Under the pieces are notes generated by a model that was not told the DNA's origin, did no database searches, and saw only the letters and a list, made by a program, of their open reading frames with translations. A stretch of DNA of 31,202 nt from a virus: IMG/VR virus record IMGVR_UViG_3300012988_000034, positions 1 through 31,202 of that record. The stretch is one strand, 5' to 3'. The position numbers were made by a program, and so were the translations under genes. Below are positions 1 through 27,517 of the stretch, in pieces. Position 1 is the stretch's first letter, and every line of letters begins with the position of its first letter.

Positions 1-1951
1 CCGTGGCAAACTGAATCGTTCCGCCTGAAGCGTAGATAGTTATTGACTCTCCAGGCATCTTGCAGCTCCTGAACGTCGTCATTGACGTACCGGACGCGCT
101 GGCCTGGACCGTGTCCCAGCATTTGAGGTCAACCGTCGCCGCCGGAGCTAATGTTCCCGTAACTCCACTGCTTACATAAACATTTGCCGGCGTGGCGCTG
201 TTGAACGTTCTTGCATTGATGACCTTCACGGAAGCGGCGTTGCCGGCAGTGTTCTTCACCAGATTATCCGGAGTCGCATAAACCAGCGGAGTATCCAGCA
301 TCACATCAGCATTCGTCACCGTGTTCGGCACGTTGACGATATACCCATTGCCGGCATTCACTCCCACGTTTGAATTGATATGCGGCCTTTTAAAGTTCAA
401 CCCTACAAGCAACTGTGACGTGTTGGCGAGGTTATAGGCTCCCTTGATGACCTCGAAATGGTCGTCTTCTGTCGTAATGCTTGTCCCGCCATCGAACAGA
501 TAGGCAAAGCCATTCTGGTTCGTCGTGCTGTGGAAGTGGATCGAATAAGGGGCCTGCGTTCCAGTTGTGCCGACAAAGACATTCTGGCCGGTATCGCTCG
601 ATTGACCGTCGAACCAGCAGTTATAGAAATCGAATTGCCCGGCGCCGCCTTCTACGCGTAGCGCATTCTGGGTTGCTCCCGTCGCCCCCGTTGGACGTAT
701 AGCCGTGATGTTGGTAAACGTGTTCCCCTGGGTGCATCCAATCGACCCGGAAACCCCGTCCTGAGTTGCTTTGAAGTGAACTGCCACACCCTTAAAACCA
801 TTCAGAATGATGTTATCGAAGCGCGACAACTCTACTCCGGCATTGGTAAGGTTCGAGCAATCCAAGAAAAACCCGTCTTGCGACGTATTCCCCGCCAAGG
901 CATTCGCGCTGAAGTCGTGGATCTTGACCGTGATCGCGTTGTTGTTAACCTGCGGATTGACAAAGAGCGGCTGAGCGTTGGTCCCAACCGATGTGACATT
1001 GGTGCTTAAGACGTTCGCCCCGCCAAGGTCAAGCCCCTGCCGGACGGTGATCTGTGTCGCAGTGAAGTTGTATGGGCCCAACCGCACCGTCACAGGCTTG
1101 GTATTCGATCCAGTATCGAAAGCGCCCATTGCCAGCGGCACATCCGGCGCCGTCCCATCCAGGATGCAGCCCGTCGATGGACAGGCGGCCAGGGCAAGCG
1201 CCCACGTCGTATAGCCGCAAGCGGCCGAAACCACAACGACAGCTTTGCCATTCTCGAATGTGTAACACTCACCGCCAGGGAATGAGGCCAGCCCATTCGC
1301 CGAAATAGTGCCGCTGAATACAGTGTTGGGGACCACACTGAATGTGGAAGCCCCCGAACTCCCGGAATGGCTCAGCGTGAGCGTGCTCGTCGGATTGCTG
1401 CCGGTTCCCAGCACGTCCTGGAGCGTCCACTGGTCCACCGCCGCGGCCGAGCCGTTCCAGTAGCTTCCCTGGACCCTGAGATTATTGCTGCTCTGGTTCG
1501 CCCCGGACGTCGCGGCCGTGGGTTGCTGCAATGTCACGTCACCACTGCTCAGGATGCTGGCAAAGACCGTGGCCGGCGTGGACCAGGTGATTCCATCTGT
1601 CGTGGTGATCGTAGATCCAGAAGCACAATTCACCCCGCCCGCGCTCTTGACCACAAACTTATAGGCCGCGGAGGTTAGCCAGATCCCGCCCGCCGAAGGG
1701 AACCCGCCCGAATTCAAGATGACCGGGTTAGCGTTCGGCGTGGTCCCCGCGGAATCGCTGTAGGTCACCAGAGGCGTGGTCGTGCCGGCCGCATAGGTAA
1801 ACACGCACCCGGCGCTGTTCGGACTGCCGTTGGTGTTCAGAAATTGCGGGTTAGAGGTCAGAAACGGCGCGACTGTGACCTGCGCCCGGAGAGGAAGACC
1901 CATTCCATACGTCAGGAATGCGAGTGCAATCAATTGAAATAGTTTTTTCAT
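1..1951 (-). CDS. Tailspike / receptor-binding protein with signal peptide (partial)
   Basis: The reading frame is open from the ATG at 1951 to the window edge, 650 codons without a stop, so the C-terminus is missing. Residues 1-23 form a textbook Sec signal peptide (MKKLFQLIALAF start, LRA before Gln24). Residues of about 25-95 (NPQFLNTNGSPNSAGCVFTY, then an LVTYSDSAGTT element) resemble the head-binding domain at the N-terminus of podoviral tailspikes. The rest is rich in Asn, Thr, Gly and Val in the way of a right-handed beta-helix, with segments such as VKIHDFSANAL and FDFYNCWFDG. By family, such proteins bind or cut surface polysaccharide. It is the last gene of the virion operon, the place of gene 9 in P22. 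A weak AAGAG lies before the start. The signal peptide is odd for a virion protein. Enzymatic activity cannot be judged from the sequence. Confidence 0.8.
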   Translation of the reverse strand, partial: MKKLFQLIALAFLTYGMGLPLRAQVTVAPFLTSNPQFLNTNGSPNSAGCVFTYAAGTTTPLVTYSDSAGTTPNANPVILNSGGFPSAGGIWLTSAAYKFVVKSAGGVNCASGSTITTTDGITWSTPATVFASILSSGDVTLQQPTAATSGANQSSNNLRVQGSYWNGSAAAVDQWTLQDVLGTGSNPTSTLTLSHSGSSGASTFSVVPNTVFSGTISANGLASFPGGECYTFENGKAVVVVSAACGYTTWALALAACPSTGCILDGTAPDVPLAMGAFDTGSNTKPVTVRLGPYNFTATQITVRQGLDLGGANVLSTNVTSVGTNAQPLFVNPQVNNNAITVKIHDFSANALAGNTSQDGFFLDCSNLTNAGVELSRFDNIILNGFKGVAVHFKATQDGVSGSIGCTQGNTFTNITAIRPTGATGATQNALRVEGGAGQFDFYNCWFDGQSSDTGQNVFVGTTGTQAPYSIHFHSTTNQNGFAYLFDGGTSITTEDDHFEVIKGAYNLANTSQLLVGLNFKRPHINSNVGVNAGNGYIVNVPNTVTNADVMLDTPLVYATPDNLVKNTAGNAASVKVINARTFNSATPANVYVSSGVTGTLAPAATVDLKCWDTVQASASGTSMTTFRSCKMPGESITIYASGGTIQFAT

Positions 1952-2014: not shown

Positions 2015-3565
2015 TTAGTAGGGAGGTTTCACGCCGCGCTGAATCAGCGACCGGCGCATCGCGTCCAGCATCGACATTGGCTCGCCCATAGTGGTCTGTA
2101 CCTGGTCGTCCCCCGGCACGGCATTCTGCTCCTGCAGCATGTCGCCGATCCGCTGCCGAATGCCTTTATCGATTCCCCGGATCTTGGTGGCTGCAAAGTC
2201 CACCGTGCTCATCCCCTGGGGATACTGCCGGATCGTCGCCGCGGCATTGCGCAGCGTGGCAATGCGGTAGGGATCGCCCTTGGCCGCCTGCAACTGCGCT
2301 GCTTCTTTGTTCAGCCCGTCGGCGATCAGGTTGTTTTCCGGAAACTGCGACGGCACGGACTTTGCCTGCTGCGCCGCCGCCTGGAATCCCTGGATCTCTT
2401 CCGGCTTCAGGCTGTCGTGGATCTTCCCGATCAGGTCCGCATGCGTGTCTTTGGGGCTCACCGGCAAGCCGCGTTTTTGTGCGATGTAGCGCAGTTCGTT
2501 GATGTTCTGCCGCGTGAGCTGCATCGATGCGGCGTCTTCCCCTGAAAGCCCCGGAGGAAACTGAATGTCCGCGCGCGGCGTCATCTGCGGCGTAGTGCCA
2601 GGCCTTACCGCCCGGATCGACGCCGAAGGCGCCGCCACGCCCGCATTCTTCATCGCCTGCGTTACCCCGGCGTCTTTGAGGACCTGCGCCGTCTTCGGCG
2701 GCTGTGCCGGCACAGCCGCGGGTGTTTCATCCGGCGCCGCGGCAAGCTGCCTCTCTGGGCCAATCAATCGCTTCGGCGTGGCCGTCTTGGCGTCAACGAT
2801 CTGGTCACCGGAGAGACGGTACGGCGCCGGAGTTGGCTCCGGCTCACCAGATACGGCGTTCGCTGCGCTCTCCGCTGCGGCCTGCGTTTCTTCCGCTGGA
2901 GTGAGTTTGCCGGCTACCTTGCCAACTTTAGCCATCCAGCGGAGCGCCGAGGCCGCTCGCGGAGAAAGAAAGCCAAGTAAATCAGGATCAACCGAACTAG
3001 TGATCGCTCCCGCCGCTTTGCCCGCAGTCCTGGCTACGAAGGGCAGGGCTTTCGGAGAATTGGCCCCAGCCAGGCCCGTCAGTACTCCTCCGACGTTGGA
3101 CGCCAGTTCCGCCTGGTCCGGCGTTGCTCCTGCCGCCTTTGCCAGCCCTCCCACAGCAGCGCCTCCGGCAACTCCAGTGCTAACGCCCAGTACGGTTGCC
3201 AGCGGGCGGGTTGCCAGTTGACCAGGCAGCGCCGCCAGCGCGATCGGCGCTGCCGCCTTGAATGCTTCATTGCCTGATTTGGCGTATTGCCCGGACTTCG
3301 CCGCAGCAATTGACGCTTCAGAATGGCTCGTAAACGCATCCGCCGGTTTCTGAATAAAGTCGATTGTCTTATCCAGGAAGTTGCGGTTTTTGTATCTCTC
3401 CACCGCCTGCTGCGGGCTGGTATCGTCTACATGCCCGTAGTGGTCCGTTATCCACTTCAGGTCAGGCAGTTTTTCACCGGATGGCGCGGCTGTTTTCGCA
3501 GGCTCGGCTACCGGCTTCCACGCCGATGCCGTTTCATCAACTGCGGTCCAACCTTGAGTGGCCAT
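2015..3565 (-). CDS. Putative ejection (DNA-transfer) protein, gp16 position
   Basis: This 516-residue protein is encoded between the gp20-like gene and the tailspike, where P22 has gene 16, and it is close to gp16 in length (about 609). Residues 103-145 and 155-190 are Ala/Gly-rich and weakly hydrophobic, as expected of a protein that leaves the virion and enters the envelope. Residues 225-330 are a Pro/Ala-rich linker. Residues 348-386 (LTRQNINELRYIAQKRGL followed by THADLIGKIHDS) look like a SAP/HeH-type helix-extended-helix fold. The start codon follows the stop of the upstream gene directly (TAAATG), so translation is probably coupled. The ejection role is inferred from position, size and composition. 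No lytic-enzyme motif is visible. Confidence 0.6.
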   Translation of the reverse strand: MATQGWTAVDETASAWKPVAEPAKTAAPSGEKLPDLKWITDHYGHVDDTSPQQAVERYKNRNFLDKTIDFIQKPADAFTSHSEASIAAAKSGQYAKSGNEAFKAAAPIALAALPGQLATRPLATVLGVSTGVAGGAAVGGLAKAAGATPDQAELASNVGGVLTGLAGANSPKALPFVARTAGKAAGAITSSVDPDLLGFLSPRAASALRWMAKVGKVAGKLTPAEETQAAAESAANAVSGEPEPTPAPYRLSGDQIVDAKTATPKRLIGPERQLAAAPDETPAAVPAQPPKTAQVLKDAGVTQAMKNAGVAAPSASIRAVRPGTTPQMTPRADIQFPPGLSGEDAASMQLTRQNINELRYIAQKRGLPVSPKDTHADLIGKIHDSLKPEEIQGFQAAAQQAKSVPSQFPENNLIADGLNKEAAQLQAAKGDPYRIATLRNAAATIRQYPQGMSTVDFAATKIRGIDKGIRQRIGDMLQEQNAVPGDDQVQTTMGEPMSMLDAMRRSLIQRGVKPPY

Positions 3566-5110
3566 TTACTTTTCCAGTGTCCAGCCTGGCGGCAGTGCCG
3601 TTCCCGCTGGGGCTTCGTGTAGTTTGCCTTGCTGGTCGCGCGCGCGGATCATTCCTTCCGGCTGGCTTCCGGCGCTGGTCATCGACTTGCCTTCTTTCCC
3701 CAGCTGCTCCTGCTTCTGGCGAAGCGAGAGCTTGCTCTGCGCCAGTGCCTGATAACTGTTCAAGACCTTCATGGTGGTTTCGAAATTTGCGTTATCGGGC
3801 AAGCTGGCGTCGTTCTTCTTCAACTCGGCATCGGTAATGTGGCTGCCGGCAATCATCTTCTGAACTTCGTTTTCGTAAACGTGCTTGATGGCATTGAAGT
3901 TCGTCAGATCGGCATCGCCGAATTCCGTGGCCAGCGTGTTCTTCAGGCTGTTGAGTGTGCGCGTGTCGCCGTTGTTGAGGGCTTGCGCGGCTTTTTTAAG
4001 CAGATCGGCATGCTGAATCGCGGTCTGGAACGCCAACGCTTCCTCGCCGCCCTTGCCGCCAGGCGCCATCGTCTTCGCGGTCTGTACCTGAGTAATCGCC
4101 TCGCCAGAGAATTGTGGAACGGTATACCGCCCCGGCTCTCTCAGTTTGGCATCGTTGATTTCATTCGAATCCATGTACACGGTCTGCTTGGTCTGATTGT
4201 CATAGACCGGGAATTGGCGGATCTTGCCCATGCCCTCCATGCGGATGTTGGCGGAGGCGACCGGCACAAGAAGTTTTTGCTTCTCATAAGCCTTCAAGAA
4301 GTTCTGATTTTCCGGAGAGATGGGCGTTTTAGCAGCCAGCTTTTGTTGAAGGTAGCGATATTTCGCATCCGCCATAGGCTGAGTCATGCCGCCCTGTTTC
4401 AGCATGTCCGCTTCCGCCTGTTTGATCTGACCTTCAGCAACCACGCCAGGCAGCGCGGCCTCCGCCTTCTTTTGGTTTGCTGTGGCCTCTCCCGCGCGCG
4501 CATTTGCCTCTGCCGTCTGTGCCCCTTCCTTCGCTTTAGTGAGCTGTTGAGTTTCGCTCATCAAGCCGGTGTTAAGCAGTTTCAATTGCTCCCGCAGTTC
4601 TTGCGGCGGTAGTGATGTGAGCTGCTGTACAGCTTGAGCGTGCTGCGGATCGAGGAATCCTTGTTTTGTTAAATCGGCTGCGGTTTGGGTAACATGTGCG
4701 ACCAATTGCTCATCAGGCACTCCCATTGCAGCATTGATCGCGCCGCGTATCTGATCGTTCTTTTTGAGTTGTGTGTCTACATTCTTACTCCCGGTTTCGG
4801 CGTCGTCTTTTGCCATCGTGGAGTACTTTTGCTGTATGTCTAACTTGTGAAGTTGGAGCGCCTGGATCTTGTCAGGCATGATTCCCGCCTGCGGCGCATC
4901 GGCAATAACCTTATCCAGGTCGCCGTTGTGCTTCATGTAAAGGCTCTGAAGCGCTTGGCGCTGTTTTAGTTCCATCTGCTGCTGCTGCAGATTGACGTTC
5001 TGGAGCTGTTGCTGCTGCAGCATGCCTTTCATGGCCAGCAGGCGTTGAAAGCCTTCGCCGGGATCGGCGGGCGGATTGACGTGCAATGCAGGAAGAGGAA
5101 TACTGGCCAT
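3566..5110 (-). CDS. Putative ejection (DNA-transfer) protein, gp20 position
   Basis: This 514-residue, Gln/Ala/Lys-rich protein is largely helical. Residues 31-60 are strikingly Gln-rich (LQQQQLQNVNLQQQQMELKQ), and 170-225 form a second long helix rich in Ala, Glu and Lys. P22 gp20 is 471 residues, helical, and sits between gp7 and gp16 as this gene does. In that family the protein is ejected with the DNA and helps form a conduit through the cell envelope. The start has a good Shine-Dalgarno (AGGGAG, about 9 nt upstream) and the next gene begins at its stop. The call rests on synteny and composition and not on a recognisable motif. A long open frame on the opposite strand (3629-4612) is a coding shadow. 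Confidence 0.6.
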   Translation of the reverse strand: MASIPLPALHVNPPADPGEGFQRLLAMKGMLQQQQLQNVNLQQQQMELKQRQALQSLYMKHNGDLDKVIADAPQAGIMPDKIQALQLHKLDIQQKYSTMAKDDAETGSKNVDTQLKKNDQIRGAINAAMGVPDEQLVAHVTQTAADLTKQGFLDPQHAQAVQQLTSLPPQELREQLKLLNTGLMSETQQLTKAKEGAQTAEANARAGEATANQKKAEAALPGVVAEGQIKQAEADMLKQGGMTQPMADAKYRYLQQKLAAKTPISPENQNFLKAYEKQKLLVPVASANIRMEGMGKIRQFPVYDNQTKQTVYMDSNEINDAKLREPGRYTVPQFSGEAITQVQTAKTMAPGGKGGEEALAFQTAIQHADLLKKAAQALNNGDTRTLNSLKNTLATEFGDADLTNFNAIKHVYENEVQKMIAGSHITDAELKKNDASLPDNANFETTMKVLNSYQALAQSKLSLRQKQEQLGKEGKSMTSAGSQPEGMIRARDQQGKLHEAPAGTALPPGWTLEK

Positions 5111-5113
5111 CGT

Positions 5114-6379
5114 TTAAACTCCCTGTCCGCCGGCGCCCGCCGTGCTGCCGCCTTTGTTCAACATCGCCAGAATCGCTGCCAGGTTCGACAGCCCGGAGAT
5201 CCCGCCATTGATTGCATTCGCGCTGCCGACATAACCTGACCCTCGCGCCGCGCCGGCGTTTTGCAGGTCCTGCCCGATCTGCGCTCCAGACGTCAGGAGG
5301 ATGTTGGAATTGTTCCCCGCGGTGCTCAGCCCTGCATTGCTCAGCTGCCCGGCTGAGGTCTGCCCCAGGCCTGAGAGCGTGGCAAAGCGGTTGAACAGCG
5401 TGTTCTGGTCCTGGTTGAAGGCATTGTACCGCGTGGTGTAATCGTTGAGCGCCCGGTTGTAGACGTTACCGAACTCGCTCGAGGCCGAATTCTGCGCATA
5501 GTCGCTGAGCCCCTTGGCGGTATCGCCGGAGAGCAGCTTGCCCCGCGCCGCGGCCGAGTTCTGCAGGGCCTGCAGCCCTTGGTTGATCCGGAACTGGTAT
5601 CCGGGATCGTTGATCTCGGTCACGCCCGTTGGGGCCTGCCACTTCTCGCCAAAGTTGGTAGCGAGCGAGCCAAAACCGCCGCCCGGAACAGGCGCCGTGG
5701 GGTTGCTGGGATCGCCGCCGCCATCCAGCCTCGGGACCATGCCCGGCGAGCCATCGGCCGTGACGGCGCCGCCCGTGCTGGCCTGCACCGCTCCATTGCC
5801 GGCGTCAAAGCTGTGAGCATCGGGATTCTGGAAAGGCACTGAGGCCATGCCGTTCCGCGGCACAAAGCCTGAAGACGCGCTGAATCCTCCGCCCCCGCCA
5901 CCGGCCGTTCCATCCTGGAGCGGCTGCGGAGTCCCGCCGCGGACGTTCGGCGGCAGCGTGCCAAGATTGGGATCGCTGGCCATCGGGTTCGATCCGCCTG
6001 GCAGCGTCGGCATGAAGTTGAAGCGGTTGAACGTTCCGCCGCCTCCGGCAAATATCGGGCTCGAGGTTGCCGGCGCGTTCGGATTAACCACTCCCCCAGG
6101 CAATCCCGTCTGCGGAGAGAGTCCCATCAGGAAACCCAGCCGATTGAGCGATGCCGTCCCCGTGTTGTAATACGGGGCCATCAGGTTCAGCGAATTGCCA
6201 TACTGGAGCTTGTTGAAGTCCAGCGCGGCTTGCGCGTCCTGATGTTGCAGGTTGGCCGCGTTGTTGGCGGCGTCTACCTGCGCGTTAGCGGCGCTCTTGG
6301 CCGCGCTCGATCCGATGGCGGCGGAGGCAACTCCTCCCACCGCGGAACCGATCAGCGCTAATGGAATGGCTGCGGGCAT
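5114..6379 (-). CDS. Putative ejection (DNA-transfer) protein, gp7 position
   Basis: The protein has 421 residues against about 229 in P22 gp7. The N-terminus (IGSAVGGVASAAIGSSAAKS) is a Gly/Ala-rich amphipathic segment of the kind found at the start of podoviral gp7-like and internal virion proteins. It is followed by an Ala/Asn/Gln helix (AANAQVDAANNAANLQHQ). Residues of about 100-230 are low-complexity Gly/Pro/Asn. The C-terminal part (QGLQALQNSAAARGKLLSG, then YNRALNDYTTRYNAFNQDQ) matches a pattern I associate with phage DNA-transfer proteins of this type. A strong Shine-Dalgarno (GGAGG, 8 nt upstream) supports the start. Immediately upstream lies the plus-strand HNH gene, which separates it from the gp14-like gene. 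Confidence 0.65.
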   Translation of the reverse strand: MPAAIPLALIGSAVGGVASAAIGSSAAKSAANAQVDAANNAANLQHQDAQAALDFNKLQYGNSLNLMAPYYNTGTASLNRLGFLMGLSPQTGLPGGVVNPNAPATSSPIFAGGGGTFNRFNFMPTLPGGSNPMASDPNLGTLPPNVRGGTPQPLQDGTAGGGGGGFSASSGFVPRNGMASVPFQNPDAHSFDAGNGAVQASTGGAVTADGSPGMVPRLDGGGDPSNPTAPVPGGGFGSLATNFGEKWQAPTGVTEINDPGYQFRINQGLQALQNSAAARGKLLSGDTAKGLSDYAQNSASSEFGNVYNRALNDYTTRYNAFNQDQNTLFNRFATLSGLGQTSAGQLSNAGLSTAGNNSNILLTSGAQIGQDLQNAGAARGSGYVGSANAINGGISGLSNLAAILAMLNKGGSTAGAGGQGV

Positions 6380-6415: not shown

Positions 6416-6907
6416 ATGGAAACATGGAAGCCAATTCCCGGCTATGAAGCTGACTATGAAATTTCTAGCTTGGGTACAGTTAAAAGGCTGACCGGAAACT
6501 TCAGAGGCAGGATGCTGCATCCAGAAATTACTCGCCATGGCTATCAGAGGGTAGTGCTCAGCAGCAACGCGATTAGCCGTAAGTTTATGGTCCACCGATT
6601 GGTGATGCTTGCTTTTTGTGGAGGCGGCGGCAATCTCGACGTAAACCACAAGAATGGCAACAAGGCCGACAATAGTATTGACAATCTCGAATATCTTACG
6701 AAAGAAGAAAATCATCGCCACGCTTCCGCGATAGGACTCAAGGCGCGTGGATCGCGCCATGGAAATGTCAAACTCACCGCAGGGCAAGTGCTGGAAATTA
6801 GGCGTTCCGTAAGTAGTGATACAGTGCTGTCCATTCATTATGGTGTTAGCCGAGCCACTATTTGGCAGGTGAGGAATAATCGCTCTCGCTACTGGGCATG
6901 GGTTTAG
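6416..6907 (+). CDS. Free-standing NUMOD4/HNH homing endonuclease
   Basis: The 163-residue protein has the full architecture of an HNH homing endonuclease. An N-terminal NUMOD4 motif (WKPIPGYEADYEISSLG, residues 4-20) is followed by an HNH_3-type nuclease core at about 58-100 (VHRLVMLAF, DVNHKNGNKADNSIDNLEYL, with His60, Asn77-His78 and Asn90). A C-terminal helix-turn-helix (KLTAGQVLEIRR, then YGVSRATIWQVRN, 119-155) probably binds DNA. Such enzymes cut phage lineages that lack the element and so spread it. It is one of only two supported genes on the plus strand. It sits between the gp14-like and gp7-like genes and overlaps the 3' end of the former by 50 bp. There is no intron boundary to see, so it appears free-standing. 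No Shine-Dalgarno is present; a -10-like box suggests a leaderless mRNA. Confidence 0.92.
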   Translation: METWKPIPGYEADYEISSLGTVKRLTGNFRGRMLHPEITRHGYQRVVLSSNAISRKFMVHRLVMLAFCGGGGNLDVNHKNGNKADNSIDNLEYLTKEENHRHASAIGLKARGSRHGNVKLTAGQVLEIRRSVSSDTVLSIHYGVSRATIWQVRNNRSRYWAWV

Positions 6908-7352: not shown

Positions 7353-7762
7353 TGGTGTTCGACTTTGCTGCCGCGCAACCGCTCGGCATGTGCGATCGAC
7401 TGTTGAGCCGCTTCATGCTGTGCCGCAATGCGTTGATGGTTCGCGTCGATGAAGGCCTGCAACTCGTCAGTCGATCGGAGCCGTGGCCCGGCTTCTTCGT
7501 GCGCTACCAGGTGAAACGTGTTCCAGGAGCGCGTGTCCGCATCCTTGATAAAACCAGGACGCATCACGGGAAACTGTCCGCCATGCGGGTGCGGCTCTAA
7601 CGCTGTTCTGTGGCACTGCTCGCAACCCTTTTCAGCGTCTTCCTTATCACCGCATCCAGGACACGGCTTCCACTCTCCATGCAGACCGCAACAGGAGATG
7701 CAGACAGAGACAATGCCGTCCGCGATCTGCAACACTTCAACGACTTGGGTTGAATGCGCCAT
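7349..7762 (-). CDS. Cys-rich putative zinc-ribbon protein
   Basis: The protein has 137 residues. Its N-terminal half carries closely spaced Cys pairs (CISCCGLHGEWKPCPGCG, then GCEQCH at about residues 46-51), which probably bind one or two zinc ions. The C-terminal half is a charged helix (DELQAFIDANHQRIAAQHEA). I do not recognise a family. It lies between the gp26-position protein (TAATG overlap at its start) and the gp14-like gene (ATGA overlap at its end), so it is co-translated with virion genes. It has no direct counterpart in P22. Confidence 0.75.
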   Translation of the reverse strand: MAHSTQVVEVLQIADGIVSVCISCCGLHGEWKPCPGCGDKEDAEKGCEQCHRTALEPHPHGGQFPVMRPGFIKDADTRSWNTFHLVAHEEAGPRLRSTDELQAFIDANHQRIAAQHEAAQQSIAHAERLRGSKVEHQ

Positions 7763-8481
7763 TACTGCACATACCCACGGCCGCCCGCGGAGCCTTTCGT
7801 CCCGCCTGTGTTGCCGCCGCCCGTTCCTGCCACGCCTGCAGAGGTCGTAAGTGTGCCGAAGTTGATCGATCCTTCCGCCGAGGTTTGACTCTGCGGCGTC
7901 GTGCTGGCCGAATACGAAACCGCGCCGCCGGCGAACGTGGGGTCCGGAGCGGTGATATATGACTTCTGGAACACTCCGGGATCGACGGAACCCGAATTGT
8001 AGGCAACGCCGCCTGGCGCAAATTGATTTGTGCTCGACGCAATCACAACGGCATGGCTTACGCCGTCATTGGAAAGCGTCGTGCTCGATGTCGGCGTATT
8101 GCTTACGTTGACCGGAGTGCCACGGAAGCTGTTTTGTAGGCGATTGTTCGTATCAAGCGCCTGAAATCCTCTCTTGCCGCCGCTAAGCGGGCTGCCGGTC
8201 CCGTCGGCGATGTTGTCCGTGTTTTTGTTCGCATAGGCTCTAGCAAAATCGACGCCCGGCGCAAGAATTGTTCCCGCTGCGTCCACATTTTGCAGCGTCG
8301 TGCCAATCTGCTCCTGACGTCCGGAAACTTTGGTAGTCGCCTGCACCTGCCCTTGGACGTTCAGCGCCGGCCCGGTCTTCTGCTCCAGGTCCCGCAGCCA
8401 CAGCATGAAGTCCCGCGTGGGATTGCCTTTGGCGTCCACGATGGGGCCGCGCAACTGCCGGAGTGGGAGAGGATTCGACAT
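7762..8481 (-). CDS. Putative virion protein in the gp26 (tail-needle) position
   Basis: The 239-residue product starts PLPLRQLRGPIVDAKGNPTR, followed by a short helix (FMLWLRDLEQKTG). This kind of N-terminus occurs in small structural proteins of podoviruses. The rest is beta-prone and rich in Ser, Thr, Gly and Asn, ending in a Gly-rich tail. It lies directly after the gp10-like gene, as gene 26 does in P22 (gp26 has 233 residues), but I see no trimeric coiled coil of the needle type, so equivalence is by position only. The ATG is the first possible start after an in-frame TGA and has no Shine-Dalgarno. The sequence upstream is the unexplained 547-nt stretch. Confidence 0.6.
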   Translation of the reverse strand: MSNPLPLRQLRGPIVDAKGNPTRDFMLWLRDLEQKTGPALNVQGQVQATTKVSGRQEQIGTTLQNVDAAGTILAPGVDFARAYANKNTDNIADGTGSPLSGGKRGFQALDTNNRLQNSFRGTPVNVSNTPTSSTTLSNDGVSHAVVIASSTNQFAPGGVAYNSGSVDPGVFQKSYITAPDPTFAGGAVSYSASTTPQSQTSAEGSINFGTLTTSAGVAGTGGGNTGGTKGSAGGRGYVQ

Positions 8482-9028: not shown

Positions 9029-10555
9029 TTACGCCTGCGCCCTCAACTTGTTCGTCAGGCGGTCCACCGGGTCATTAATATAGGCATCGATCACGCGCCA
9101 GGGGATCGGGTCCGTCGTGCTGACCTCAAACACCCGGCCCTTCTGGGTCGATCCCAGCTTGTTCCTGTAGACCCTGGTCTTAAACTCACCGGCCTGGCCG
9201 CAATCCAGTTGCGCTTCATTGCTCCAGGTCTTGCCGCCATCGTCGGACCAGCGCAACATGATCCGCGGCGCCCGCGCATTGCCCCCTCCATCCACCAGCG
9301 CCGGCACTGGGCCCAGCCCGGCCTCCAGATCGATTACCATGCGGTCGAAATACATGCGCTCATCTTCCAGCGCCAGCACCGGAGCCCGCCGCACTCTGCG
9401 GATCGGATTGCCGTCATCGGTGACAAAATTCCAGCCGCCGGCTAGATTCGGCTTGGGCGTGGACATCTCATAGATGTTCCCCGACGTAGGATCGCCCACA
9501 AGGTGCTTGCCAAAGGCGTTCTCATGGCATTGCGACTTGTGGGCCAACTCAGCGTTGTGCGCCGCGTCCCAGAAGGTCAGCTCAGACCAGGCCTGCGTTG
9601 CCACGTCATATTGCAGCATCGCGCCGTGCCCGTTATTGGCCGCGGGGAACAATGTCCTGTAGAGCGCGTGTCCGTTGTCCTGCAAACCGTAACTCACCGC
9701 CCCGGAGATATCGCCGAAGCCTTGCACCATGGTTTCAATCGCATGGTTGGAAATGCGCTGGGGTGTATAAGCGTTGGCCCTCCAAGCCATGCCAAAGCCG
9801 TCTTCATTCTGCCCCCACCACAGCACGGAGTTGTCCAGCCTCTTCGGTGTGAATGCAGCGTTGGTTCCCATCTCCATGAAGGCCTGCGGTATCGGAGCGA
9901 ACGGGAATACATCGCCCGAAAAATACCAGCCTTCCGCATGCTTGTTCCCGCACAGCCAGACCTCGTTATGGTCCACGATCATCGAAACCAGGTTGTCGGG
10001 GAAGTCTGATGTGGCGCTTTTCTGCGTTGGGTCCCATGTGGTTGCATCGAGCGCCGCCGAGCATTGAAACTTGTTCGAGTTATCCTGCAGCGATACGAAA
10101 AAGCCCTTGATAAATCCAACCATACGCGGCGTGACCAGAAATGGGGGATCAGCAAGAAACGCCCCACCGCCAGCCAGCGTGTAAACGAACCCGCGCCCGC
10201 CCGCCGCGATCAGCACTTGCGATGCCGCTCCCAACAGTGAATCTCCACAGGCGGCAAGCGATGCCGGCTTGCCATCATTAGCCACGGCGCCGATCGGCGT
10301 TACCGCTCCATTTGCCGCAATCTCGCAGAACTCAGACCCGCCCACGGCAAAGCAGCGCCCATTGATCTCCTTGATGCCGCGTACCGGCTTATCCGGCAAC
10401 GTGGCAAAGCGCTTCAGCCCCATCTCCGGATAGAGAGCGAAGGCGCTTTTACCCTGCTGGCTCTCAATCGCCTCCAGACGCCAGTTCACCAACCGCTGGC
10501 AGTCAGCGATGATCGATTGCGACGTGTATCCAGGACCGCAGAGACCAAAACGCAT
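9029..10555 (-). CDS. gp10-like packaged-DNA stabilisation / tail hub protein
   Basis: The protein has 508 residues (P22 gp10: 472). It has the pattern I associate with this family: an N-terminal segment with SIIADCQRLVNWRLEAIESQ, followed by GLKRFATLP and repeated beta-propeller-like stretches (VRGIKEINGRCFAVGGSEFC, LVSMIVDHNEVWLCGN, and a WWGQNEDG-MAWRANAYTP segment). In P22, gp10 forms the hexameric ring between the gp4 ring and the gp26 needle and holds packaged DNA in. It follows a gp4-like gene here too. The ATG at 10555 lacks a Shine-Dalgarno, perhaps because the plus-strand gene at 10570 has been inserted right upstream. Confidence 0.82.
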   Translation of the reverse strand: MRFGLCGPGYTSQSIIADCQRLVNWRLEAIESQQGKSAFALYPEMGLKRFATLPDKPVRGIKEINGRCFAVGGSEFCEIAANGAVTPIGAVANDGKPASLAACGDSLLGAASQVLIAAGGRGFVYTLAGGGAFLADPPFLVTPRMVGFIKGFFVSLQDNSNKFQCSAALDATTWDPTQKSATSDFPDNLVSMIVDHNEVWLCGNKHAEGWYFSGDVFPFAPIPQAFMEMGTNAAFTPKRLDNSVLWWGQNEDGFGMAWRANAYTPQRISNHAIETMVQGFGDISGAVSYGLQDNGHALYRTLFPAANNGHGAMLQYDVATQAWSELTFWDAAHNAELAHKSQCHENAFGKHLVGDPTSGNIYEMSTPKPNLAGGWNFVTDDGNPIRRVRRAPVLALEDERMYFDRMVIDLEAGLGPVPALVDGGGNARAPRIMLRWSDDGGKTWSNEAQLDCGQAGEFKTRVYRNKLGSTQKGRVFEVSTTDPIPWRVIDAYINDPVDRLTNKLRAQA

Positions 10556-10569: not shown

Positions 10570-10734
10570 ATGAAACCTGATGAAATAGCGAATGAGATTC
10601 TTAAGAACTGGCCGCGTAGCACATATAATCCATCGTGGCCGAAGTATGATGTCCTTGAGCGCGAACTGCTATTACATATCATCGACGAAACCATCAGGCT
10701 TGCTGCTTCGCCAGTTACATCAGAACAAACGTAA
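10570..10734 (+). CDS. Small plus-strand protein (54 residues), unknown
   Basis: The frame encodes 54 residues (start MKPDEIANEILKNWPRSTY, then a helix ERELLLHIIDETIRLAAS). The composition is that of a real soluble helical protein, with well-spread Asp, Glu, Lys and Leu and two Trp. It fills the space between the gp10-like gene (starting at 10555 on the other strand) and the stop of the exported beta-rich gene, and overlaps the 3' end of that gene by 20 bp in convergent orientation. I recognise no family. Its separate promoter-like box and opposite strand suggest a 'moron'-type insertion into the virion operon. The chance that it is a fortuitous frame is reduced by its codon usage and by its exact fit into the gap. 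Confidence 0.6.
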   Translation: MKPDEIANEILKNWPRSTYNPSWPKYDVLERELLLHIIDETIRLAASPVTSEQT

Positions 10735-11497
10735 CCCACCCGTTCACCGTCGGCGTCGTTCCCGCGCTCACAATGCACATGTCCTGCCCCGCCGCGCCGC
10801 TGAAGAGTGTATGACCCGCTCCTACAATCAATCCCTGGCCGGAGGTCACCGGCAGAGCCATCGCGCCGGTCTTGTCAGTAGGCGATGCGCATGTGCCGCC
10901 GGTCCCCACCTGAAACTTGATAGTAGGCGTCGTTCCAGACGTCCAGATAATGGTGAATGCGCAGACATAGACTCTCTTGCCGGCGCTGCCGGCCTGGACA
11001 ACCGTTGTTGTGGATGAACTGATGGCCACCAGAAATGAGCTTTTGTCAATCGCGGCCGATGCGCACGGATCCACCGGCCCTGGAGTCTGCCCGTTGATGC
11101 CATAAGCCAGGCTTACCTGCGCTGCCACGGTTCCGGAGCTGAACGCCGATACGCGGATCCTGACATTTGTAAATCCGGCCGCGTCCGCTTGCCACACTCC
11201 ATTCCCCGTCGCGCTGGTGACTTGCTGGCCGTTCGGCATCGGGCCAACCGCTAGTGCGGTCCAGGTCGTTCCATTGTCCACGCTGAATTCAAACTGCGCC
11301 GTGGCGCTCCACGTTCCGCTTAGCTGAAAGGTGACCGTAGAGGTATCGGAAAATACCGGGATCGACAAGCAATTGGCCGCCAGGCAGCTTGAGCTTGCCG
11401 CGGTCAGGTTGCCCGTCGTAGGCTGGGGCTGCCCCTGGAGCTGCGCCAGGCAGGAGCCCGCCAGCAGCAGGATTGTAAAAAGTAGTCTCTTCAGCAT
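10715..11497 (-). CDS. Exported beta-rich protein of the virion cluster
   Basis: The protein has 260 residues. Residues 1-18 (MLKRLLFTILLLAGSCLA before Gln19) form a clear Sec signal peptide. The Cys16 context (AGSC) is a poor lipobox, so signal peptidase I is more likely than lipoprotein processing. Residues of about 45-135 (VTFQLSGTWSATAQFEFSVD, TWTALAVGP, NVRIRVSAFSSGTVAAQV) resemble an Ig- or jelly-roll-like beta sandwich seen in phage accessory structural proteins. The C-terminal half (VYVCAFTIIWTSG, IKFQVGTGGTC) is a second beta domain with paired Cys. A strong Shine-Dalgarno (GAGGAG, about 6 nt upstream) fixes the start. It lies between the gp4-like and gp10-like genes, where P22 has nothing. 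Oxidised Cys pairs would fit an extracytoplasmic protein. Confidence 0.75.
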   Translation of the reverse strand: MLKRLLFTILLLAGSCLAQLQGQPQPTTGNLTAASSSCLAANCLSIPVFSDTSTVTFQLSGTWSATAQFEFSVDNGTTWTALAVGPMPNGQQVTSATGNGVWQADAAGFTNVRIRVSAFSSGTVAAQVSLAYGINGQTPGPVDPCASAAIDKSSFLVAISSSTTTVVQAGSAGKRVYVCAFTIIWTSGTTPTIKFQVGTGGTCASPTDKTGAMALPVTSGQGLIVGAGHTLFSGAAGQDMCIVSAGTTPTVNGWVTFVLM

Positions 11498-11499
11498 AA

Positions 11500-12294
11500 T
11501 CAGCTCCTCTGGCCCGTCAGGAAATTGAAGTCCGGGATCGCCCGGCCCTTACTGCTCGATGGCGCATCGCTTTTGAGCGCCGGCGCGCCGCTGTTGTTCG
11601 CCTGGATCGCATTGCGGGCTTCGCGGTATTGCAGCATGAAGGAATTGGAGTCCACTACCTGAATGGCCCGCGGTCCATAAGACGGCGCCATGTCCGCGGC
11701 GACCGCACACATCAGGTACGACCAATATGCCGGCGGCATCGCCAGCACGGTATCGCCCGCCAGAGCTTGTGAAAGCCCGCTCCACAGCTGCAGGCGGATG
11801 TTGTTGGCCACGTTCGGGATCGGCAGCAGATAGACGCTTCCCAGCAGTGCGCCGCGGGAATAATAAAGCGCCGTGGGCAACGAACTGGAAAGGTTCTTGA
11901 CCGATACTTGCGCCCATTCCTGATCGTCCAGGATGAGCATCGGCGGGAGGTCTACATTGCCGTTCGTTCCAGGCAGGATCCAATTCGCGCTCTCGATCCT
12001 CACCGGCGGGTCCGGCACTACAAAGTGACCTGCTGGCGCCGCGGGTCCAATGCTGATCGGCTGAACATTAGGCGGGCAGGGAAACACCTGGAAATTGACC
12101 GCATAGATCAGCGGCTTTTGCGCGTTCACCAGGTCGATGCGACGTTGCAGGCATTCCAGACCCCATTGCGAGTCATCCGCCTGGACCGCCCCTCCCAAAG
12201 ACACTGCCCCCAACATCAGCAAGGCCGCGGCACACAGGTCCCCGGCTTTGACTGAGATCGTGCTGTTGGCGGCAGTGAGATTGAGAGGCGGCAT
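11500..12294 (-). CDS. gp4-like head-completion / tail-accessory factor
   Basis: The product has 264 residues; P22 gp4 has 166. The N-terminal helix (GDLCAAALLMLGAVSLGG) followed by SQWGLECLQRRIDLVNAQ is the usual opening of gp4-type adaptor proteins, where it marks the helical body. Later segments (DQEWAQVSVKNLSSSLPTAL, SVYLLPIPN, IRLQLWSGLSQAL, and PPAYWSYLMCAVAADMAPSYG) fit the family pattern as I know it. In P22 the protein forms the ring below the portal after packaging. The hydrophobic N-terminal stretch is a structural helix, not a signal peptide. The start abuts the stop of the upstream gene. Confidence 0.75.
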   Translation of the reverse strand: MPPLNLTAANSTISVKAGDLCAAALLMLGAVSLGGAVQADDSQWGLECLQRRIDLVNAQKPLIYAVNFQVFPCPPNVQPISIGPAAPAGHFVVPDPPVRIESANWILPGTNGNVDLPPMLILDDQEWAQVSVKNLSSSLPTALYYSRGALLGSVYLLPIPNVANNIRLQLWSGLSQALAGDTVLAMPPAYWSYLMCAVAADMAPSYGPRAIQVVDSNSFMLQYREARNAIQANNSGAPALKSDAPSSSKGRAIPDFNFLTGQRS

Positions 12295-12802: not shown

Positions 12803-13768
12803 TTAGAACAACGCCACGTACGGCGCCTTCGCCGTGGTGAACGTTGTCGGCAAAGTCACCTTCGCGGCCGTGCCAAAGACCTGGCCCGTCACCGCGCCGC
12901 CAATGATGTTGTCATTGACGGCCGTAATGGCATGCCGGATCGTGTCCGTGGTCCCGTTCAGGCCGTCACAGACGAAATACCTGCTTGGCCCTACGGCGTA
13001 AAACTTGCTCACGAAGTTGATCTTCTGGTAGGTAGAGGCCCCGGAAGTGGTTACGCCGGCCGTCGCCGTATTGGCAAGCACGTTGCCTGATGTGTCATAG
13101 AGAATCAGGAAGTGCTTATTGGTTCCCACCGTGGTCCCATTCAGCACCGCCGCGCCCGTTAGGAGCATACTGAACGGAAGGTTGACTTCCGAGCAGTAGA
13201 TCTCCGTCGAAGCAGCCGCGGCCGTGCCGGCAGTTTCCAGCGCGGTCAGTGCTGTCGCTCCTGGATCCGGGAAACGCGCCAGGCTGTTCAGTGTGCGCGA
13301 GGTCTGCATGGCGTCGCCCTGCACCCACTGGCCGCCGAGGCAATCAGACACCGTTCCCGAGAAAGGCTCAATGCGTGGCAAGGCCAGTTCATTGCCTCGC
13401 GTGCAAGCGCCGTTCGGGATGATCGAAAAGAAGGTGCTCAGGTATGCCGGAATCACAAACACCGGCGCGGCGTTGACGTGGGGCGCGGCCACGGTGTGCA
13501 GATATCCGCGTGTCACGCCGATAGTGGTTGAGTTGACCGAGGTCACTCGCATCGCCTCGTGATCAACATACAAATACGTTGCTTTCGTGTTGTCAGAGGC
13601 GCTCGAAGCGCTGATGCCCGTCGCCGAAGCGACAGTAATCAGCGTGGTTTTCGAGTCGCCCACGGCCGCAGAAAGCGTCGTGTTCGTCAAGATGGTCTGG
13701 CCCATCGCCGGGAGCATGCTTCCCAGCAACAGGACCAGCCCAATCAGAAGAGAGTGAAGTCGTTTCAT
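12803..13768 (-). CDS. Exported head-associated (decoration-like) protein
   Basis: The start chosen is the ATG at 13768, with AAAGGA upstream; a TTG at 13777 lies too close to the Shine-Dalgarno. The protein has 321 residues. Residues 1-23 (MKRLHSLLIGLVLLLGSMLP, with AMG before Gln24) form a strong Sec signal peptide. Residues of about 25-100 (LITVASATGI, TYLYVDHEAMRVTSVNSTTI, VTRGYLHTVAAPH) match a repeat-like beta element of phage head or tail decoration proteins. The remainder is beta-rich, with Cys near IPNGACTRG, SDCLGG, IYCSEVN and YFVCDG. It follows the coat gene directly, where decoration proteins are often encoded. P22 has no such gene. Confidence 0.72.
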   Translation of the reverse strand: MKRLHSLLIGLVLLLGSMLPAMGQTILTNTTLSAAVGDSKTTLITVASATGISASSASDNTKATYLYVDHEAMRVTSVNSTTIGVTRGYLHTVAAPHVNAAPVFVIPAYLSTFFSIIPNGACTRGNELALPRIEPFSGTVSDCLGGQWVQGDAMQTSRTLNSLARFPDPGATALTALETAGTAAAASTEIYCSEVNLPFSMLLTGAAVLNGTTVGTNKHFLILYDTSGNVLANTATAGVTTSGASTYQKINFVSKFYAVGPSRYFVCDGLNGTTDTIRHAITAVNDNIIGGAVTGQVFGTAAKVTLPTTFTTAKAPYVALF

Positions 13769-13813: not shown

Positions 13814-15049
13814 TTAAGCTCCGGCCACGGCCACGGCGCCGTTGTCCTGATATCCCAGACCAAACCCGAGGCAGCAGTCGTAACGGCTGGTGGTCTTGCG
13901 CTCTTTCTGGTCCCACGCGCGGACATAAGCGATACTCAGCCCGGTTTCATCGTCCTCTGCCATCTCCGCTTTCTCAACGGCCTTGGGGTTGTCGAACTTC
14001 CCGCCGGCCATCAGGAACGCATATTTGGTAAGCAACAGGGAGACCAGCCCGGCCTTGCCGTTGGGCGAAGCCGTGCCAGGCCACATGGTGATTGCCGCGC
14101 CGTTGGTGGGCAGCGAATCCACGTTCTGGTACTGGGAGCCAGGTCCGTAAATTGGCGGATTGATGTTGATGGTGTCGTTGCCGCCTGTCAGAACGTAATT
14201 CTGTGCCACGGTGAAATGCTGCAGGCCCATCGAGCCGGCGCGGCGCGTGCGCGGGTTCACCCCGTTCACGCTGGCGATCGAGAACTTGTCGCCCGCATTG
14301 ATCGTGTCTCCGTTCGATCCGGTGACGATCAGCGCATTGCCTGACTGGTTCGCTCCGGTCACTACCAGCGTGGAAGCGATCGTGCCCGCCGTCTGCTTGA
14401 ACAGCGAATTGGAGCGGTAGAACGTCGAGCCGGCAATCGTTCCGATCACGCCCTTGCGGAACATGTCTGAAACGTCTTTGCTGGGGTTGAATTGCGATGT
14501 GACATTGTTCTTGATGTAGCTCTCGCTCAGTGACGGCGAGACGCACATGTGCCGCTTCAACGTCACCGGGCAGGCCTTCTCAAACAGCCGGCGTTCTGCC
14601 GCGGTGTAAGGAGAAAGCGTGGTCGCGTCCGTGCCCAGCGTTCCTACCACGTTTGACGTGTAGAGCGTCGCCCAGTTCGCGGCGCGGGTGTCTGCCTCCT
14701 GCGCCAGTTGCGCGCCGGCGGGCAGGAAGTAAGCTTCGTCCAGTTCTTCTTCCGTGCGTCCCAGGGCCACAAGTTTTTCGTAGGAGTCCCACTCAAAGTG
14801 AATGCCAAATATCTGGTCCAGGTTGAGCGTGGTCACCAGGCGGTTGATGCCTTGCGGCTGATAACCCAGGCCGTCCGTAACCAGCCAACTCTGGGGAATG
14901 GGGATCTGCACTTGTGATCCCACAGGGAACGACTTGGTAAATTCAGCTTCCCAGTCGGTATTGAATTGCGCGGCCACCTCAAGAGAGTTCTTGAGGAACC
15001 ACAGGATTTTCAGGGCTACCCAATTGGGTAGGGCAAAATTGTTCGGCAC
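13814..15049 (-). CDS. Major coat protein, P22 gp5-like
   Basis: The protein has 411 residues (P22 coat: 430) and starts with GTG, with AAAGGA about 8 nt upstream. The N-terminus (NWVALKILWFLKNSLEVAAQ, then FNTDWEAEFTKSFPVGSQVQ and IPIPQSW) has the N-arm and early beta strands of the P22-type HK97 fold as I know the family. The segment LNLDQIFGIHFEWDSYEK is also typical, and so is the order TerL-portal-scaffold-coat. It forms the icosahedral shell around the scaffold. The downstream gene encodes an exported, decoration-like protein. A 16-bp palindrome lies in codons 7-12. Confidence 0.85.
   Translation of the reverse strand: MPNNFALPNWVALKILWFLKNSLEVAAQFNTDWEAEFTKSFPVGSQVQIPIPQSWLVTDGLGYQPQGINRLVTTLNLDQIFGIHFEWDSYEKLVALGRTEEELDEAYFLPAGAQLAQEADTRAANWATLYTSNVVGTLGTDATTLSPYTAAERRLFEKACPVTLKRHMCVSPSLSESYIKNNVTSQFNPSKDVSDMFRKGVIGTIAGSTFYRSNSLFKQTAGTIASTLVVTGANQSGNALIVTGSNGDTINAGDKFSIASVNGVNPRTRRAGSMGLQHFTVAQNYVLTGGNDTININPPIYGPGSQYQNVDSLPTNGAAITMWPGTASPNGKAGLVSLLLTKYAFLMAGGKFDNPKAVEKAEMAEDDETGLSIAYVRAWDQKERKTTSRYDCCLGFGLGYQDNGAVAVAGA
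15016..15031. repeat. 16-bp palindrome in the start region of the coat gene
   Basis: CTACCCAATTGGGTAG is a perfect palindrome within codons 7-12 of the coat gene. It codes for part of LPNWV, so it may be fortuitous. In the mRNA it could fold only as a tight stem or as an intermolecular duplex near the ribosome-binding site. Confidence 0.3.
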
Positions 15050-19596: not shown

Positions 19597-19809
19597 TCAC
19601 CCCTTTCCCAGAATCTTGTTTGCCTTCGCCCGGATCCGCGCAGCGGAGGCCGGGGAGAGACGTCCGGCCTTCACCTGCTGCGTGGCTCTGCCTTTTGCGT
19701 TTGCGGCGCGGCCCCTCGTATCCAGGGGATATTTGCGCTCTTGTGGCAGGCCAAACTTGCTGCTCGGTAATGCGTTGCGTCGTGCCGACGTGATCTTCGC
19801 CATACTCAT
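19597..19809 (-). CDS. Small basic protein after TerL, unknown
   Basis: The ATG at 19809 overlaps the TerL stop as ATGA and gives 70 residues; a GTG at 19815 is also possible. The sequence (AKITSARRNALPSSKFGLPQ, then ERKYPLDTRGRAANAKGRAT and LSPASAARIRAKANKILG) belongs to a type of small phage protein with an 'ALP-FALP-ERKYPI' opening that I have seen in many phages near head genes. No function is established to my knowledge. The high Arg/Lys content suggests nucleic-acid binding. Confidence 0.72.
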   Translation of the reverse strand: MSMAKITSARRNALPSSKFGLPQERKYPLDTRGRAANAKGRATQQVKAGRLSPASAARIRAKANKILGKG

Positions 19810-21344
19810 CCCCACTGAAATCCGCGTCCCCTCGGTGCAGCCGGCGGCGGTTCCGGCTTCGCCAGCAGATTCACCGCAAACGTCATCGCCAGTGCATCGC
19901 CGTCGTCCGGAGAATTCAGCCCACGCGCCTTCATGTCGTCTTTCTTCTCCAGTTGGATCTGGTTCTTGGGCGAATAGCCGTATTGCGGGCTTACTAGGTC
20001 CTGCGCCAGTTCGGGATCATTCGGGATTTCCATGCCGGCAATCAGCGCGTCCCGCATCAGGCCCCAGACTTCCGCGCGCCGGTTGAAATACTTATTGAAG
20101 TCAAATGCCGGCTTGCCGCCATGGAACTCATAGAGCAGGCGCTTGTATCCCTGGAACTCCAACTGGTCGTAGACTGTGGCGCCAATGCCGTCTGAGTCCA
20201 CCACGACCGCGTCTGGATTGTGCTCCCGGATGGCCGCAATCACGTGCGCCGTCGTTTCCGCGGTGCTCAACCCGCGCCAGCGTCCCAGACGTCTAGAATG
20301 CCGCCCTTGCCGTAAATAGAGCGTGGTCTTGTCGTCACCATACCGCGCCACATCGCAGGCCAGGACCTTCGGCAGCGCCTGGTAGCCCTGCGCTTTGTAC
20401 TTGCGGCACGCCGCCACGGCGTCGCTCGGAATAAGCTGATTGAACCCCGCCCGCGGAAACTCACCGCGTACCAGAATGCGGAAGTGGTCGCTGTCTTCGC
20501 CGTAATCTTCTTCCCACTTCTTGATCTGGTCCTGGTTCACGCCCTCCACTTTGCGCGAATCGATCTGCCGCGTGATCCAGCGATGCTTGAAGCTGCCAAA
20601 GCATTCCCGGAACCGGCCGGTATTGCGCGTGGGGTTGCCAAACGCCAGCCACAGGATCTCCGTGTTCTCGTCGGTCAGGGCGCCTTCAATTACTTTCCAG
20701 ATCTGGTCATCAATCGAGCTAGCTTCGTCGAAGATGACGACGATCCGCTTCCCCAGGTTGTGCATCCCCGAGAAAGCTTCCGTGTTGTCCACGCTCCATG
20801 GGATCAGGTCCGCGCGCCACGTCCGCTCATGCTTCTTGTCTTTCGAGATAACGATCGTCGTGTAGACATTGAACCAGTGCGAGTTGATCGCCAGCCGCGA
20901 CCACTTGTTGATTTCCGGTGAAGTCTTAGTGCGGAGCTGGGTGTCCGTGTTGGCCGTAATGATGATCTTGGTGTCCGGGAAAGTGCTCAGCCCCCACCAG
21001 CTAATCTGCCCCACCAGCGTGCTCTTGCCAATGCCTTTGCCGGACGCCACCGCCAGCATCAGCGGCTGGTGGCGTGTCTCCGGATTCTGCAGGTGCTTGC
21101 CGATCTCCGTCAGAACGTCGGCCTGCCATACGCGCGGGCCTTTCATCAGTTCCAGATCGCCATGCCCCCAGTCATAGGCATACTTCACAAAGCCCAGTGG
21201 GTCATGCCGAAAGGCCGCTACCTGCTCAATCAGCCGCGCCTGGATCTCAGCTTCACGCTTGCCCGCTTCTACCTGGTCCAGCACTTGCCCAGTCACCGGC
21301 TCACTCATGAGCACCGCCAGACATACCGACAGGAGCCATTTCAT
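19806..21344 (-). CDS. Terminase large subunit (TerL)
   Basis: The 512-residue protein has both enzymatic halves of TerL. ATPase: Walker A SGKGIGKST (101-109), Walker B IVVIFDE (201-207) and a coupling-type motif LWLAFGNPTRNTGRF (231-245). Nuclease: CDVARYGDD (330-338), VVVDSDGIGA (380-389) and SPDDGDALAM (478-487) supply the metal-binding Asp residues. It pumps DNA through the portal and cuts it. The ATG at 21344 is in an ATGA overlap with TerS and has AAGGTGA upstream. The first 19 residues (MKWLLSVCLAVLMSEPVTG before Gln20) look like a signal peptide, which makes no sense for a cytoplasmic motor; an internal ATG at 21308 (MSEPVTGQ) is an alternative start with a weaker ribosome-binding site. 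Confidence 0.93.
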   Translation of the reverse strand: MKWLLSVCLAVLMSEPVTGQVLDQVEAGKREAEIQARLIEQVAAFRHDPLGFVKYAYDWGHGDLELMKGPRVWQADVLTEIGKHLQNPETRHQPLMLAVASGKGIGKSTLVGQISWWGLSTFPDTKIIITANTDTQLRTKTSPEINKWSRLAINSHWFNVYTTIVISKDKKHERTWRADLIPWSVDNTEAFSGMHNLGKRIVVIFDEASSIDDQIWKVIEGALTDENTEILWLAFGNPTRNTGRFRECFGSFKHRWITRQIDSRKVEGVNQDQIKKWEEDYGEDSDHFRILVRGEFPRAGFNQLIPSDAVAACRKYKAQGYQALPKVLACDVARYGDDKTTLYLRQGRHSRRLGRWRGLSTAETTAHVIAAIREHNPDAVVVDSDGIGATVYDQLEFQGYKRLLYEFHGGKPAFDFNKYFNRRAEVWGLMRDALIAGMEIPNDPELAQDLVSPQYGYSPKNQIQLEKKDDMKARGLNSPDDGDALAMTFAVNLLAKPEPPPAAPRGRGFQWG

Positions 21345-26151: not shown

Positions 26152-26411
26152 CGCGCCGTCTCCATCAGCCGTTTGCAATGCGCTGCCAGTTGCCGGCCGT
26201 ATTTTTCTCGCGTCTTGATGCAATCGCGGCATAGCAACCGGCCGCTGGTGATCCAGTGGAAGCGGTCCACCTTCACGCCAGGATGTTCCCGGCATTCCGG
26301 CTGCTTACCGGCTTCCCACTCTTCCCTCCGGCTGCGCCGCAACTGGTTCTTCCATGCCGCGCAAAGGATGCGCTGCAGCGGATCGGGTTTCTCGACGTCA
26401 GGAGCGTTCAC
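26148..26411 (-). CDS. Small Cys-motif protein between initiator and helicase
   Basis: The 87-residue protein starts with GTG in a GTGA overlap with the initiator stop and ends in an ATGA overlap with the helicase start. It is very basic (AAWKNQLRRSRREEWEAGKQ), with Cys/His spaced as a possible zinc site (LCAAW, ECREHPGVK, LCRDCIKTREKYG). Position between initiator and helicase suggests a role in helicase loading or in binding single-stranded DNA, but this is inference; no family is recognised. Confidence 0.7.
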   Translation of the reverse strand: MNAPDVEKPDPLQRILCAAWKNQLRRSRREEWEAGKQPECREHPGVKVDRFHWITSGRLLCRDCIKTREKYGRQLAAHCKRLMETAR

Positions 26412-27493: not shown

Positions 27494-27517
27494 GGGTCCT
27501 TAGGGGGTCGTGCGCTG

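Follow-up and report, generated by a model that had tools for sequence, protein, structure and literature searches.

The tailspike of a soil phage related to P22, along with other outer proteins of this phage and its relatives, begins with what appears to be a Sec signal peptide. From their sequences, the surface proteins of these phages are very probably exported. An earlier note on this DNA had dealt with the spike. The sequences go further and support export as a repeatedly conserved property of the phage group that would involve several surface proteins per phage. On balance, we consider it somewhat more likely than not that this tailed phage completes its virions outside the cytoplasm. 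The DNA analyzed, referred to here as the window, is the whole of the 31,202-nt IMG/VR virus record IMGVR_UViG_3300012988_000034.

The window encodes a P22-type phage

Nearly all genes of the window are on the minus strand. It encodes a P22-type coat, portal, terminase, head-closure protein, and DNA-ejection protein. The major coat protein (13814..15049, minus strand) matches PF11651 (E 1.7e-15) and phrog_283 (E 3e-47), and the portal matches phrog_156. The head-closure or needle-head protein (9029..10555, minus strand) matches phrog_578 (E 3e-76) as well as the needle-head and stabilization proteins of Pam1 (needle head 7eeq_1, E 1e-18) and Pan3 (9vyg_M, E 2.5e-18). Together, the PF11651, phrog_156, phrog_578, and Pam1/Pan3 needle-head matches identify the phage as a P22-coat podovirus. 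Three ejection-type genes lie upstream of the spike on the minus strand (span 2015..6379). The first (5114-6379) matches the DNA ejection family phrog_598 (E 1e-19), and the other two (3566-5110 and 2015-3565) are assigned to this type by position only. A similar order of genes precedes a leader-bearing spike in G399 and G405.

PDB sequence searches with the regions at 11500-12294 and 7762-8481 gave no match. An ORF resembling an HNH-type homing endonuclease (6416-6907, plus strand) lies antisense inside the structural module. A low-complexity repeat occupies the contig end (30899-31201, minus strand); it reads as GYGDGSGYGSG or, in a second frame, as RLRLRRRL.

The tailspike starts with a signal peptide

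The spike ORF starts with an ATG at position 1951 on the minus strand, and a Shine-Dalgarno-like sequence, AAAAGAGAAC, lies just 5′ of it. Nucleotides 1951..1883 are exactly codons 1 to 23, MKKLFQLIALAFLTYGMGLPLRA, and the next codon is Gln24. The earlier note had read these 23 residues as a Sec-type signal peptide, and our analysis bears this out. The layout is that of a Sec/signal peptidase I leader: a positive n-region beginning MKK, the uncharged hydrophobic core LIALAFLTYGMGL, and a final LRA directly ahead of Gln. The residue at −3 is Leu, which is tolerated, not optimal. The sequence has neither a Cys at +1 nor a twin-Arg motif, so the leader is not of the lipoprotein or Tat type.

We scored N termini with a hand-set von Heijne-type signal-peptide score that was calibrated on 121 E. 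coli K-12 proteins. In that set, 25 of 28 known signal-peptide proteins scored at least 6; so did 5 of the 93 others, all 5 of them inner-membrane proteins. The spike scored 6.2, and two other products of the window's structural module, which we call A and B, scored 8.5 and 7.8. The coat, portal, scaffold, head-closure, and ejection-type proteins scored at most 5.4. By score alone, the spike leader is only moderately significant: 0.3% of random segments of window proteins and 1.65% of composition-preserving shuffles reach its score.

The longest form of the terminase ORF (21344..19806, minus strand) has a good Shine-Dalgarno sequence and a signal-peptide-like hydrophobic start, and it scored 6.1. 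We rejected it as a fourth exported protein because the hydrophobic stretch is absent from relatives, which makes it an internal false positive. One score by itself is therefore no proof, and we accept the spike leader because leaders are conserved in relatives, not because of the score alone. The true terminase start may be an ATG 12 codons further on. The terminase genes of L012, L015, L016, and L027 are interrupted by a sequence that ends in FIVTHN followed by Ser, which resembles the end of an intein.

The domain behind the leader resembles the P22 tailspike head

The spike head-binding domain (1567..1882, minus strand) comprises mature residues 1 to 105 and contains Cys26 and Cys86. The AF2 model of these residues has a pLDDT of 92. 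Its best PDB matches are Pan3 (9vyg, Z 11.0), P22 (1LKT, Z 10.5, 1.8 Å over 84 residues), Pam1 (7eeq, Z 9.8), and also Sf6, and unrelated folds appear from Z 6.3 down. The domain also matches the tailspike heads of Pan3 and Pam1 in sequence. The earlier note had placed a head-binding-like domain directly behind the leader. This agrees with the model, in which that domain has the P22 tailspike head-binding fold.

The tail machines of Pam1 and Pan3 match both the window spike head and the window head-closure protein. Judging from its sequence matches, the latter, which has no leader, is likely the docking partner of the spike and offers the same kind of docking surface.

The left edge of the window cuts the spike gene short, so the rest of the spike (2..1566, minus strand) is partial. 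The right part shares 76% identity with a protein of L002, which has an N terminus unlike that of the window spike yet is also leader-bearing. The C-terminal part of this partial gene looks like a β-helix by eye only, and neither Pfam nor PDB sequence searches gave a significant match to it. Apart from the spike, we recognized no receptor-binding candidate in the window.

Two more proteins of the window carry leaders

Protein A is encoded directly downstream of the coat gene (whole gene 13768..12803, minus strand). Its leader, MKRLHSLLIGLVLLLGSMLPAMG (13700..13768), is followed by Gln, and none of 2,000 null segments scored as high. The mature protein (12803..13699) has four Cys residues and is a candidate decoration or fibre protein. 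Its N-terminal part matches the tail protein family phrog_1101, and its predicted structure has a pLDDT of 57. We found 11 leader-bearing members of this family, each on its own contig; one is that of the window, and two come from contigs binned in Acidobacteria MAGs. All 11 have leader scores of 6.9 to 9.4 and exactly four mature Cys residues, and the one leaderless relative that we found has a single Cys. The predicted cleavage sites align at the same mature start, QTIL or similar. Pairs with 61 to 74% mature identity have leaders that are just 24 to 43% identical. This is the usual pattern of signal peptides, in which the character is kept and the sequence is not. No relatives of A were found among 50,697 phage records.

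Protein B (whole gene 11497..10715, minus strand) has the leader MLKRLLFTILLLAGSCLA (11444..11497), again followed by Gln, and the leader is kept in L003, L005, and L039. The mature protein (10715..11443) is probably a surface protein. It has 6 Cys residues, and relatives have 6 and 8, so that the numbers are even throughout (6, 6, 8). Among the 50,697 phage records, B had one weak partial match only.

Leaders and paired cysteines occur together in relatives

The earlier note had suggested looking for phage tailspikes with the same kind of leader. Relatives of the window spike do have leaders in the same place; in eleven reference phages, the head-binding domain is at the protein start, with no leader. 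Our comparison set was a sample, the best 80 viral loci with the head-binding domain among the matches listed. At most of these loci, there is no leader and the protein begins directly at the domain. The mature start of the leader-bearing proteins aligns with the natural N terminus of their leaderless homologues.

Among the matches listed, reduced to 80% identity, a Cys pair is present in 9 of 12 leader-bearing versus 0 of 50 leaderless head-binding domains (Fisher test, p=1e-8, not corrected for ancestry). At 65% identity, the counts are 8/11 versus 0/24 (p=7e-6, among the matches listed and likewise uncorrected). The tree of the 95-residue domain is mostly poorly resolved and is compatible with a single origin of the leader, so these p values overstate independence. 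The geometry of the pair takes three forms: GC-VFTY plus a loop NC, LC-TY plus a loop NC or TC, and PCTGC. Four leader-bearing heads have no Cys pair: L008, L098, L176, and L177, the last a near-copy of L176. The leader of L098 requires a GTG start codon, and this head entered the count as leader-bearing with no pair. The leaderless tailspike of Shewanella X14 has two Cys residues in its first 110 residues; within the shorter stretch taken for the Fisher test, it does not count as a two-Cys protein.

We rejected the use of Cys number by itself to recognize export, because the head-closure protein contains 9 Cys residues and has no leader. Only Cys residues that are paired and conserved were therefore used. 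The presence of such pairs with leaders, and not without them, implies folding in an oxidizing compartment. The simplest reading of these sequences is that a disulfide was gained repeatedly in a protein that would mature there.

P22-type coat proteins are encoded by 19 of the 22 records tested, leader-bearing and leaderless. Six leader-bearing records each have 2 to 6 leader-bearing fibre-type genes (those of G399 encode 146, 594, 392, 785, 545, and 315 aa), and some have extra small leader-bearing ORFs of other kinds. The leaderless P22-coat relatives G413, G414, G415, and G418 have none, save one 107-aa ORF that is probably spurious. In G399, G400, and G405, the leader-bearing spike adjoins the ejection-type genes, with more leader-bearing fibres close by. 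L095 has three tandem copies of a leader plus head-binding domain (3013, 3507, and 4001; G398 25810-28114). The first two stop soon after the domain, and the third runs on into a 408-aa protein. This arrangement is possibly a tail-swapping cassette.

The hosts appear to be Acidobacteriota

In the GTDB set of bacterial and archaeal contigs, the coat profile matched two genomes, both Acidobacteria MAGs. The deep search of cellular genomes covered Acidobacteriota only; there, 2 of 396 genomes matched the coat profile and 4 of 396 the head-binding profile. Three of these four head-binding loci were read, and all three have a leader. One is in a 6.4-Mb single-contig genome, with two more leader-bearing genes alongside. 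From these matches, the phage group apparently infects Acidobacteriota.

The spike, A, and B all have Gln at +1, as do nearly all leaders of relatives. Among predicted exported proteins of Acidobacteriota, Gln is at +1 in 17/42 (G243) and 11/44 (the two MAGs G001 and G002), compared with 1/17 in E. coli. The Gln of the phage proteins thus matches the substrates of the presumed host signal peptidase, and adaptation to that enzyme would account for it. In G243, G001, and G002 (L048-L088 and L185-L204), Gln is the commonest +1 residue, like the Q-rule described as typical of Bacteroidetes.

A proposed route of assembly

The presence and conservation of leaders, the docking fold of P22 type, and the Cys pairs, all read at the level of sequence or model, lead us to infer export, periplasmic storage, and late attachment. 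In the proposed route, the spike and other outer proteins would be made with Sec signal peptides and exported into the host periplasm. Signal peptidase I would then cleave them and expose the N-terminal Gln, and the proteins would fold with disulfides and be stored there. The capsid, portal, tail-hub, and ejection-type proteins would remain in the cytoplasm, where heads would be filled and closed. Once lysis proteins breach the inner membrane and wall, completed heads would encounter the stored spikes and decoration proteins, and the head-binding domain would attach to the tail hub as lysis proceeds or shortly afterwards.

Because the docking domain and its tail partner are both retained, our best inference is that exported spikes probably join virions during or after lysis. 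For the full division of labor, with heads and tail hub made in the cytoplasm and disulfide-bonded receptor-binding and decoration proteins in the periplasm until lysis joins them, we see slightly better than even chances. The earlier note had proposed a phage that matures its virions outside the cytoplasm. Since no leader is found on the capsid, portal, head-closure, or ejection-type proteins, assembly outside the cytoplasm would be limited at most to adding the outer appendages and would not extend to the virion as a whole.

P22 heads have been completed with tail parts in vitro (Israel et al. 1967, as listed in PMC3741392). A difficulty for late docking is that spikes diluted at lysis would need to dock fast and tightly. 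Export might be of benefit by yielding stable disulfide-bonded adhesins and by separating glycan-active spikes from the cytoplasm.

The main rival explanation is that the leader-bearing proteins are exported and are not virion parts. Acting as adhesins or depolymerases, secreted or on the cell surface, they would strip surface glycan, promote release, or prevent superinfection, and the head-binding domain would be a relic or an oligomerization module. Export itself, which this explanation shares, is well supported by the leader sequences, and the Q-rule exported proteins of Porphyromonas phages were read by their authors as possible envelope modifiers (PMC10367356). We nevertheless consider it rather unlikely, since the docking domain has lost neither its fold nor its conserved core, its tail partner is still encoded, the genes are at the usual spike, decoration, and fibre positions, and the spike is the only receptor-binding candidate recognized in the window.

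Proteins could also be routed both ways. If the leader were inefficient or skipped, through fast cytoplasmic folding or an internal start, a cytoplasmic pool could supply virions and an exported pool could serve another use. Some leaders do have an internal Met that could start translation (M18 in the window; also L008 and L045). However, the leaders of L101 and L125 have no internal Met, and the repeated occurrence of Cys pairs points to a mature form that is exposed to an oxidizing compartment, so we regard dual routing as improbable. Hydrophobic N termini can anchor proteins, and an uncleaved leader could be a membrane anchor or a virion element for entry in place of an export signal. This is highly improbable, given that leaders of unlike sequence share small −3/−1 residues and Gln at +1 and that the mature start coincides with the N terminus of leaderless homologues. 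Least credible of all is a chance hydrophobic stretch or a wrong start codon, as is likely for terminase ORF 21344: despite that ORF's unconserved score and the shuffles that reach the spike score, it is largely refuted by the recurrence of spike, A, and B leaders in many divergent relatives.

Relation to known systems

Tailed phages are taught as assembling entirely in the cytoplasm. If the proposed late assembly is right, a lineage that exports recognized surface adhesins changes this picture, and the origin of disulfide-rich phage adhesins is explained. Post-lysis attachment of tailspikes, so far an in vitro property of P22, would be a natural maturation step. A leader with Gln at +1 and paired Cys residues would also be a practical sequence mark for phages of poorly cultured Acidobacteriota. 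We found no precedent for exported receptor-binding proteins of tailed phages in the literature searched.

Filamentous phages are assembled at the membrane and leave by extrusion, and their coat proteins are virion proteins with Sec signal peptides. Here, by contrast, only outer parts of a tailed P22-coat phage are predicted to be exported. The tailspikes of P22/Sf6, Pam1, and Pan3 share with the window spike the head-binding fold (Z 9.8 to 11), a place after ejection-type genes, a P22-type coat, and a head-closure partner. However, theirs is an N-terminal domain, whereas here a signal peptide lies ahead of it and a Cys pair is present. Xanthomonas phage PBR31, which has a named host, encodes the same head-binding domain and, directly after the tailspike, a leader-bearing putative structural protein (L037 5157-5966, score 7.4). 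Unlike the window spike, the PBR31 tailspike has no leader. The Q-rule signal peptidase I substrates of Bacteroidetes, including Porphyromonas phage proteins, are similar in that predicted cleavage exposes Gln and the phage leaders resemble host leaders (PMC5837995, PMC10367356). The function of those phage proteins is unknown, whereas here they are spikes and fibres, and the apparent hosts are Acidobacteriota.
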